The notes under the pieces were generated by a model. That model did no database searches and had not been told where the DNA came from. It saw nothing but the letters and a program-made list of their open reading frames with translations. A program made the translations under genes and the position numbers. Shown one piece after another: positions 36,556 through 39,115 of a stretch of 64,000 nt of DNA. The stretch covers positions 564,001 to 628,000 of the forward strand of contig NZ_JAYKGJ010000002.1 in NCBI RefSeq assembly GCF_036860695.1, given 5' to 3'. This stretch comes from Rosettibacter firmus (GTDB taxonomy: Bacteria; Bacteroidota; Ignavibacteria; Ignavibacteriales; Melioribacteraceae). Within the stretch, counting starts at the first letter, position 1; each line of letters opens with the position of its first letter.

Positions 36556-37428
36556 ATGGCAAAATTGGATTTTGTTAAACAATACATAGTTCAATGTATT
36601 TCAAATGCTGCTAATAATTTAAGATTGAGTTCTGAAAAAATAGAAACCGTTGCTCTTTTACGTGAAAGGTTAGCGAGCTCAAATAATCTTGAAGAAGAAA
36701 TAAAAAATTTTAAAAGGATTACTGAACTTTCTAAACTTGGAATTAAATTAGGCGAAATATTGAATTACCTTGAAAATAGTAGAATAGACTTTTTAAAACT
36801 TTCAGATAAATTTAAGGAACATAGTTTTTATCTTGTAAAAGAAATTAATTATTTTCTTGATATTGTTACACCACAAACAATGAGAAATATTTTAGATAGG
36901 CTCGATAACAAAACTATTAATGTTGACTTAACCAAACTTGAAAATAAAAAAGTAGAATTTAATGATAATAAAGCGATTAATATTCCTCAACGAACTCGAG
37001 CCGACGAATTGAAAGAAGCAATAATTTTTGATGAACTATCAAAACTTAACGAATTTAGCTTCGAAAAATTTGAAGAAAGGATATTAAGACCTATCAAAGA
37101 TTTGGATTCATTCTTAAATAAAGTTTCTAAGTATGATTATACCGAGAGTGAAATTAATTCATACATAAAGTTAATGAATGAAAACGCTGAACTTTCTCAA
37201 AAAGTTGGTTTTGAAATAATATCCAATATGCATAAAATATTTGCTCAGGGACTTGAAGCTATTCATCAAAAAAAAATTGCTCCAAGTAATTTAGTAATCG
37301 AAGCTTTAAGAGCTTGTTTAATTGTTATTGTTGCTGTTGTAAGAGGGAAAGAAGTTGATATTACAAACTACCTTAATCGTGCAGAAAATTTTGGTAAAAT
37401 GATTTTTCAAACTAAAAGGGTATTCTAA
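36556..37428 (+). CDS. Hypothetical helical cytosolic protein
   Basis: 290 residues, not recognised. No signal peptide; predicted largely alpha-helical with charged amphipathic stretches such as LRERLASSNNLEEEIKNFKR and LDRLDNKTINVDLTKLENKK, and a more hydrophobic C-terminal helix VIEALRACLIVIVAVVRGKE. It ends in TAATG shared with manC, so expression is coupled with the guanylyltransferase. The HDOD gene upstream suggests a regulatory rather than biosynthetic context. A conserved hypothetical of this phylum is likely. Confidence 0.7.
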   Translation: MAKLDFVKQYIVQCISNAANNLRLSSEKIETVALLRERLASSNNLEEEIKNFKRITELSKLGIKLGEILNYLENSRIDFLKLSDKFKEHSFYLVKEINYFLDIVTPQTMRNILDRLDNKTINVDLTKLENKKVEFNDNKAINIPQRTRADELKEAIIFDELSKLNEFSFEKFEERILRPIKDLDSFLNKVSKYDYTESEINSYIKLMNENAELSQKVGFEIISNMHKIFAQGLEAIHQKKIAPSNLVIEALRACLIVIVAVVRGKEVDITNYLNRAENFGKMIFQTKRVF

Positions 37429-38495
37429 TGGAATTATTCATAGTAATTATGGCTGGGGGTGTAGGATCCCGCTTCTGGCCCAGAAGCAAAGAAAGAAAAC
37501 CTAAACAATTAATTCGCATCTTTGGCGAAAATACAATGATTCAAGATACTGTAAAAAGGCTTAATGGTTTAGTAGAAAATAAAAATATTTATGTAATAAC
37601 TAATAGACTTCAAAAGCTCAGAATTAAAGAACAACTTCCAGATATTCCAGAAGAAAATATTATTGATGAACCTTTCGGTAAAAATACCGCTGCTTGTATT
37701 GGTTTAGCATCTATTATTATTAAACAAAAAAATCCCGAAGCTGTAACTATTGTATTACCTTCAGATCATCTTATTAAAAATGAAGAAGAATTTCAAAAAT
37801 GTCTTTTAAATTCTGCAAAGTTTGCTTATGAATCCAGAGGATTAGTTACTATTGGAATTAAACCTACAAGACCTGAAACTGGTTATGGATATATTCAATT
37901 TGATGAGAAGGAGATTGAGAATAATATTCATAAAGTATTGACATTTGCTGAAAAACCTAATTTATCCACTGCTATTAGATTTATAGAAAGTGGTGATTTT
38001 TTGTGGAACTCTGGCATATTCATCTGGAGAGTTGATGTTATTTTAGATGAATTAAAAAAATATTTACCAGAACATTACGAAGGACTTTTGAAAATCGAAT
38101 CTGCAATAAATACAAATGATTTTGAATCTCAGCTTACTCAAGTTTATGGTCAGCTTCGTAGTATTTCAATTGATTATGGAGTTATGGAAAAAGCAGATAA
38201 TGTTTATGTTACAAAAGCAGATTTCTATTGGAATGATGTTGGAAGCTGGGAAGCTGTTTATGAAGTTTCTGAAAAAAATGAAGATGGAAATGTTATTATT
38301 GGTGATGTTTATTCAGAAAAAACTTATAACTCATATATATTTTCTCCAAGAAAATTTACTGCTGTAATTGGAGCGGAAAACTTAATTATAATTAACACAA
38401 ACGATGCATTATTAATATGCAATCGTAATTATGCACAGGATGTGCGTCAGGTAGTTGATTATCTTAAAATGAATAACAGAACAGATTTAATATGA
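37428..38495 (+). CDS. manC: Mannose-1-phosphate guanylyltransferase
   Basis: 355 residues, length of the monofunctional enzyme (no phosphomannose isomerase domain). Forms GDP-mannose for cell-surface glycans. Nucleotidyltransferase signature IVIMAGGVGSRFWPRSKERKPKQ at the N-terminus; FGKNTAACIGLAS, VLPSDHLI, FAEKPNLSTA and DYGVMEKADNVYVTKADFYWNDVGSW are all family motifs. The ATG overlaps the preceding gene by one base and the stop overlaps the RpiB-like gene by four (ATGA), making a tight three-gene unit. Confidence 0.93.
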   Translation: MELFIVIMAGGVGSRFWPRSKERKPKQLIRIFGENTMIQDTVKRLNGLVENKNIYVITNRLQKLRIKEQLPDIPEENIIDEPFGKNTAACIGLASIIIKQKNPEAVTIVLPSDHLIKNEEEFQKCLLNSAKFAYESRGLVTIGIKPTRPETGYGYIQFDEKEIENNIHKVLTFAEKPNLSTAIRFIESGDFLWNSGIFIWRVDVILDELKKYLPEHYEGLLKIESAINTNDFESQLTQVYGQLRSISIDYGVMEKADNVYVTKADFYWNDVGSWEAVYEVSEKNEDGNVIIGDVYSEKTYNSYIFSPRKFTAVIGAENLIIINTNDALLICNRNYAQDVRQVVDYLKMNNRTDLI

Positions 38496-39115
38496 AAAAA
38501 GTTATAACCGAAAATGATATTCTTAATTTAATAAAAGTTGGGGCAGGTGAAATCCATCTTAAAAAAAATCAAATTCTTACTCCCTTAGCTTTAGATAGAA
38601 TAAAATATGCTAACTTGAAAATAGTTTATGATAATGATGAAACTATAAAATCAAAAATTGTTAACAAAATAATAATTGGTTCTGATCATACAGGATTTAA
38701 AGTAAAAAAAATACTTGTTGAATATCTTAAAAATAAAAATTATGATGTAACAGATATTGGCACTTTTACAGAAGATTCAGTTGACTATCCCGATATTGCT
38801 TTAATTGTAGCTCAAAGAGTATCGAATGGAGAATTTGACTGCGGTATTTTATTAGATGCAACTGGAATTCCATCGGCGATAACTGCTAACAAATTACCAA
38901 ATATTAGAGCTGCAACTTGTTATAATGAATTTTCTGCAAAAAGTTCTCGTGAGCATAATGATGCAAATATTATTGCACTTGGTGCAAAATCACTTGGTGA
39001 AGAAACAATCAAATCAATCGTTGATGTCTGGTTAAATTCAACTTTTCTTGGAGACCGTCATCAAAGAAGGCTGGACAAAATTAAAGCTATCGAAGAAAAA
39101 TTTATGAAAAAGTAA
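38492..39115 (+). CDS. RpiB/LacAB-family isomerase-like protein with N-terminal extension and altered active site
   Basis: 207 residues. Residues ~58-203 align with RpiB: IIIGSDHTGFKVKK, TDIGTFTEDSVDYPD, SSREHNDANIIALGAKSLG and DRHQRRLDKI. The catalytic loop differs: RpiB has ICGTGxGxSIAANK, while this protein has LLDATGIPSAITANK, so Asp122 replaces the catalytic Cys and the phosphate-binding glycines are altered. Residues 1-52 form an extra domain, ITENDILNLIKVGAGEIHL...ILTPLALDRIKYANLKI, resembling the short N-terminal domain of EutQ- and PduO-type proteins. Pentose isomerase activity is therefore doubtful; it overlaps manC by four bases, so a role on another sugar phosphate is possible. 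Confidence 0.8.
   Translation: MKKVITENDILNLIKVGAGEIHLKKNQILTPLALDRIKYANLKIVYDNDETIKSKIVNKIIIGSDHTGFKVKKILVEYLKNKNYDVTDIGTFTEDSVDYPDIALIVAQRVSNGEFDCGILLDATGIPSAITANKLPNIRAATCYNEFSAKSSREHNDANIIALGAKSLGEETIKSIVDVWLNSTFLGDRHQRRLDKIKAIEEKFMKK

Follow-up and report, generated by a model that had tools for sequence, protein, structure and literature searches.

The window, a stretch of 64,000 nucleotides of the Rosettibacter firmus contig NZ_JAYKGJ010000002.1 (positions 564,001 to 628,000), carries a gene for an RpiB-type protein of 207 residues in which aspartate replaces the catalytic cysteine, referred to here as Asp-RpiB. Its start codon overlaps the stop codon of an upstream manC-like gene by four bases (ATGA, 38492-38495), exactly as the original prediction had described. 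The features of the locus are the following:

37428..38495, + strand: manC-like gene for a mannose-1-phosphate guanylyltransferase, upstream of the Asp-RpiB gene
38492..39115, + strand: Asp-RpiB gene encoding 207 aa, with a microcompartment-type (BMC-type) domain at the N-terminus and an RpiB domain after it
38492..38632, + strand: N-terminal domain, residues 1-47, strand-helix-strand-helix-strand, common to TIGR02536, EutQ and PduM
38666..39103, + strand: RpiB domain, residues 59-204, from profile match and model
38855..38893, + strand: active-site loop DATGIPSAITANK, residues 122-134, aligned to RpiB
38855-38857, + strand: GAT codon of Asp122, replacing the codon of the catalytic Cys
38954..38959, + strand: His155-Asn156, conserved HN pair

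At the level of the catalytic domain, the protein matches PF02502 over residues 60-197 (2.6e-52, 176.9 bits against a curated cut-off of 24.7) and passes the TIGR01120 (rpiB) model with 157 bits against a cut-off of 138.65, and it does not reach TIGR02133, the model of mycobacterial-type RpiB (123.8 bits against a cut-off of 168.2). The phmmer alignment with the RpiB of C. thermocellum turns the loop VICGTGLGISIAANK of the latter into LLDATGIPSAITANK in the window protein, placing Asp122 in the column of the Cys and Ala123 and Pro127 in glycine columns. The protein is thus without the catalytic Cys of the CGTG loop by which canonical RpiB is recognised, and the predicted exchange of Cys for Asp is borne out. 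It retains Asp65-His66, Tyr99, Thr124, His155-Asn156, Arg189 and Arg193, and an AlphaFold2 model built from 50 aligned sequences (mean pLDDT 93.9) lies 0.6 Å from the C. thermocellum structure 3he8 over 146 columns. Hence the RpiB fold is predicted to be intact, in agreement with the earlier statement that the histidine of the HND motif and the overall fold are kept. The C. thermocellum enzyme, 50% identical over the domain (Foldseek), matches Asp-RpiB in the Asp-His, Tyr, His-Asn and Arg positions; the two proteins differ by the Asp in place of Cys, by the loop glycines and by the extra N-terminal domain.

The exchange at residue 122 characterizes a family. A profile test for the N-terminal domain, applied to the distinct RpiB-type proteins collected, assigned it to 97, of which 95 have Asp at this position, the other two having Glu (L165) and Thr (L113, a degenerate copy); Asp122 is therefore not a chance feature of the window protein. 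RpiBs without the domain gave Cys in 80 of 83 loops read, Gly in one and Asp in two (L045, a contig fragment, and L181), two further loops being unreadable. Asp is also present in each of eight further copies that were read subsequently in genomes outside the class. In the 50 aligned members D65, H66, H155, R189, H190 and R193 are invariant, and N156 and D122 are conserved in at least 90%. A tree computed from 180 RpiB domains, unrooted, built on few columns and with unsettled bootstrap, also contains an Asp group: a branch supported at 100/92 has all 81 canonical sequences, 80 with Cys and one with Gly, on the same side. Two changes of the Asp label are required in this tree, since the degenerate L113 is placed elsewhere. 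Long-frame RpiBs in four PF03319-negative genomes all have Cys, and no Asp loop was found in the 25 readable of 26 genomes reached via other loci. The sample to which these counts refer leaves the RpiBs of sugar phosphate utilisation (SPU) BMCs of other phyla outside. Asp-RpiB is thus a real and widespread variant of RpiB. The loss of phosphate-loop glycines, predicted together with the exchange, holds for the window protein (Ala123, Pro127) but not for the family at large, where only the change from Cys to Asp is general: some families have a DGAGIGS loop with the glycines kept, whereas the DATGIPS loop, which includes Pro127, is the usual form in the order to which the window belongs.

Three copies, L113 (G015), L114 (G054) and L188 (G305), keep the long frame and the N-terminal domain and have lost catalytic residues. 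Several relatives, such as G036, G038, G049 and G050, encode a canonical RpiB with Cys in addition to the Asp copy; the open frame containing this canonical domain measures 560 aa in G036 (L118) and 538 aa in G038 (L126), either a fusion or a frame artefact. In the R. firmus genome itself no second PF02502 gene was found, so that canonical RpiB is lacking, and RpiA is encoded elsewhere.

It had been proposed that the protein is something other than a housekeeping ribose-5-phosphate isomerase. That it is a distinct protein is supported by the Asp group in the tree, by the RpiA encoded elsewhere and by an occurrence that tracks BMC genes, as described below. The loss of the Cys, however, does not by itself imply loss of isomerase activity, since the other catalytic residues are kept and the RpiB of M. 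tuberculosis works with Glu75 as base, a residue that PMC3755991 calls non-conserved. This enzyme (1usl, 2bes) provides the precedent of a carboxylate base in an RpiB fold that is proposed for Asp-RpiB, with the difference that Glu75 does not occupy the Cys column and Asp122 does. It is a weaker structural match to the window model, with 30-31% identity.

The second distinguishing element is the N-terminal domain. Residues 1-47 form a compact alpha/beta domain in the predicted model and match TIGR02536 with an E-value of 5.1e-08, the domain corresponding to positions 162-205 of the 207 of that profile. The EutQ and PduM models match other members of the family, and the common domain spans about 45 residues. 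In a set of 33 N-terminal fragments trimmed to 49 residues, TIGR02536 was matched by 33 of 33, EutQ by 20, PduM by 9 and EutT by 1 at E ≤0.1; among 45 members at E ≤0.01 the corresponding numbers were 43 for TIGR02536, 22 for EutQ and 3 for PduM, all these matches being partial and under the whole-protein cut-offs. TIGR02536, EutQ and PduM, all of them BMC proteins, have this domain in common with Asp-RpiB and differ from it in their partner domains. The EutQ side of the predicted EutQ/PduO-type extension was accordingly recovered, and the profile search gave no PduO match; the link to BMCs had formed no part of that prediction. Two Pfam candidates were set aside as too weak: E3_binding, matched by 3 of 33 members with 0.012 at best, and PDU_like, matched at 0.00046 by a single one of the 33. 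Searches of the PDB by sequence and by fold returned no significant match to the domain, and no other protein of the R. firmus genome was found to carry it, the sole further match having an E-value of 0.9 over 14 positions. In two published deletion studies, the N-terminus of EutQ is required for binding the shell protein EutM (PMC4827028) and PduM mediates core-shell binding (PMC9132943).

The distribution of Asp-RpiB follows that of the BMC vertex genes (PF03319). A genome of the class was called positive when it had an open frame of at least 205 aa with an E-value of 8.1e-38 or better, which gave 110 genomes among the matches listed; the loops were read in 67 of these 110, and for the others the call relies on frame length and E-value. 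In the class sample of 293 genomes, and among the matches listed, 109 genomes have both the protein and PF03319, one has the protein only, 12 have PF03319 only and 171 have neither. PF03319 is therefore present in 109 of 110 protein-positive and in 12 of 183 protein-negative genomes, weaker copies in other genomes of the class possibly escaping the matches listed (Fisher 3e-65, not corrected for kinship). The only protein-only genome, G305, holds the L188 copy without catalytic residues and no PF03319 genes. Among the PF03319-only genomes, four (G053, G111, G138 and G194) were each read as having a single PVM-like locus, as was G042 of the relatives sample; G035 was read as having another BMC locus with one BMC-P; G240 has a vertex pair on a short contig and no recognised Asp-RpiB; G015 and G054 have degenerate Asp-RpiB copies; and the remaining four (G223, G249, G255 and G302) were judged from genus and vertex count alone. 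The association is also seen within one genus, g50, in which G055, G056 and G283 have both and G057 has neither. Outside the class, Asp-RpiB was found in 23 of the 24 PF03319-positive genomes of a sample of 291, and the loop was read in all 23; the matches listed for the 267 PF03319-negative genomes included no recognised copy. The exception, G314, has a vertex pair and no recognised Asp-RpiB, the loops of its RpiBs being unread.

The immediate neighbourhood of the gene was considered as evidence of a BMC role and proved negative apart from one locus, L181: in the loci read, no BMC genes lie beside Asp-RpiB except there, and the neighbours are housekeeping genes. Of the 81 Asp-RpiB loci of the class, 80 have a manC gene upstream and in the same orientation, which counts against a BMC reading; outside the class, manC lies beside Asp-RpiB in 0 of 15 loci. 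In L178, L171, L175, L169, L164 and L163 a gene for an RlpA-like lipoprotein, identified by eye, stands between manC and Asp-RpiB.

L181, in G129, combines in one run an Asp-RpiB without the N-terminal domain, DeoC and BMC-P, and continues with a gene resembling acetaldehyde dehydrogenase, shell genes of EutM-like and CcmP-like type, EutJ, a protein of 133 aa and a second BMC-P. This content fits the SPU loci described by Axen 2014 and by Sutter 2021. The 133-aa protein (L181:11880-12281) carries the N-terminal domain, has a tail weakly similar to EutQ (2.4e-4) and may be a stand-alone linker. The RpiB of SPU BMCs (PF02502 with the DeoC PF01791) is thus represented by Asp-RpiB in one such locus; the R. 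firmus gene and the others read differ in lying away from BMC genes and in having the N-terminal domain. R. firmus does encode the combination that defines an SPU BMC, RpiB-type and DeoC-type enzymes together with shell genes, dispersed over its genome, and only G129 gathers it in a single locus.

The shell genes of R. firmus are themselves scattered. Besides a PVM-like BMC locus, which contains four BMC-P genes, the genome has a pair of BMC-H genes, a BMC-T, a pair of BMC-P genes and one BMC-P standing by itself. The BMC-T adjoins an RnfC/PduS-like gene; the PduS-like protein matches RnfC models best and the BMC-T matches the PduT model under its cut-off. Throughout, PVM-like, PduL, AckA, class-II aldolase and PduS-like are presumed names, given by reading of the loci. 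Distinct from the scattered shell genes, L144 (C2:214000-233500) is a second, compact BMC locus, PVM-like by reading, that contains PduL-like, AldDH, shell, class-II aldolase-like and acetate-kinase-like genes. Between the BMC-P pair and deoB, also on C2, two small overlapping genes of 131 and 103 aa (L145:9572-10275) resemble a toxin-antitoxin pair, the first being PIN-type toxin-like by eye. The several shell-gene sites and the BMC-P triplet reproduce, at the level of genes, the layout of the FRAG BMCs, which in the accessible text of Sutter et al. 2021 (PMC8217296) have scattered shell genes and a BMC-P triplet, count Ignavibacteriae among their hosts and are without an obvious signature enzyme or an assigned function. 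Further sources are PMC4207490, PMC3212906 and PMC12108088. A literature search, with supplements and most subscription papers outside its reach, returned no paper in which FRAG BMCs are linked to DeoC or to an RpiB of the Asp type.

Two further enzymes show links of this kind. Of 58 relatives searched for DeoC, 55 gave a match, and in 40 of the 50 sequences read the N-terminus is prolonged by a conserved extension bearing a GWERNV-like motif (37 recognised by pattern; G022, G049 and G054 added by eye), among them the DeoC of R. firmus (C1:459487-460119). Asp-RpiB is present with 38 of the 40 extended DeoCs, two degenerate copies included, and with none of the 10 unextended ones (Fisher 6e-9, not corrected for kinship); the two extended DeoCs without it belong to G020 (68% complete) and G022 (90%). 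The start of the extension is patterned like encapsulation peptides. This reading amounts to a resemblance of pattern, because the hydrophobic moment does not exceed that of shuffled sequences: 57-91% of the shuffled versions of the R. firmus extension score at least as high as the extension itself, and the best of 12 DeoCs (0.05) is that of G057, which has no extension. The controls gave 0.04 for SPU DeoC, 0.07 for SPU RpiB, 0.08 for the AldDH of R. firmus and 0.52 for the tail of the 133-aa protein. In addition, deoB, encoding phosphopentomutase, lies at most 0.8 kb from the BMC-P pair in 10 of the 14 loci that have such a pair, a count that leaves out PVM-like loci; the pairs with no deoB nearby are L154 (at a contig end), L199, L316 and L318. 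No aldehyde dehydrogenase belonging to the dispersed BMC could be located in this analysis, which counts against such an organelle.

Taken as a whole, and with the co-occurrence with vertex genes weighing most, these observations are best explained, with a probability of about 0.65, by Asp-RpiB being a carboxylate-base variant of RpiB that forms part of a dispersed SPU-like BMC, probably of the FRAG BMCs. The protein would be an aldose-ketose isomerase of sugar phosphates, with Asp122 serving as its general base instead of the catalytic Cys, and the N-terminal domain may dock the protein to the BMC shell or to the enzyme core. The genes for the shell, the DeoC aldolase, the DeoB mutase and Asp-RpiB would serve one organelle from separate sites of the genome. 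DeoB would yield deoxyribose or ribose 5-phosphate, and Asp-RpiB might act on ribose 5-phosphate or on a shorter sugar phosphate. The broader proposal, that the FRAG BMCs of Ignavibacteria and related groups are dispersed deoxyribose/sugar-phosphate organelles whose overlooked signature is a bifunctional docking-domain RpiB, a carboxylate-based isomerase brought into the BMC by the domain it has in common with EutQ and PduM, is one to which we give even odds; it would supply, with Asp-RpiB and the extended DeoC, the signature enzymes that the accessible description of FRAG BMCs does not name.

An unlikely alternative is that Asp-RpiB is a structural linker of the BMC with little or no catalysis, its RpiB fold serving as an oligomeric scaffold and its N-terminal domain connecting core and shell in the manner of PduM. 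Such a role is possible because three copies lack catalytic residues; two of them, those of G015 and G054, maintain a frame of 203-205 aa, the N-terminal domain and the vertex genes in spite of having lost the DH and HN residues. The kinship of the domain with PduM and EutQ, which bind core and shell or EutM in the studies cited above, and the Pro127 that replaces an oxyanion-loop glycine in the window's order, point the same way. Against it, all catalytic residues except the Cys are invariant or nearly so in the 50 aligned members, which is unexpected for a pure scaffold.

That the protein is an ordinary cytosolic ribose-5-phosphate isomerase with an altered base, its link to BMCs being a by-product of shared ancestry, appears quite improbable. 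The TIGR01120 score, the lack of a canonical RpiB in R. firmus and the synteny with housekeeping genes would all fit with it, but R. firmus encodes RpiA, several relatives keep a Cys RpiB alongside the Asp copy, and the matching absences of protein and vertex genes recur in several genera and even within g50, where G057 has neither. Finally, a hexose-phosphate isomerase serving ManC, for instance by providing mannose 6-phosphate for GDP-mannose, agrees with the four-base overlap, with the upstream manC of the in-class loci, a lipoprotein gene intervening in several families, and with the hexose phosphates accepted by LacAB and some RpiBs, but is very improbable since manC is absent from beside the gene outside the class, where the co-occurrence with BMC genes still holds, and since it leaves the BMC-type domain and the SPU locus L181 unaccounted for.

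In the genomes examined, the way Asp-RpiB tracks the vertex genes hints at the role of the scattered BMCs, to which no function has been assigned. If the preferred reading is true, the FRAG pathway would be named by Asp-RpiB together with the extended DeoC and the vertex pair linked to deoB, which would also give a set of testable genes.
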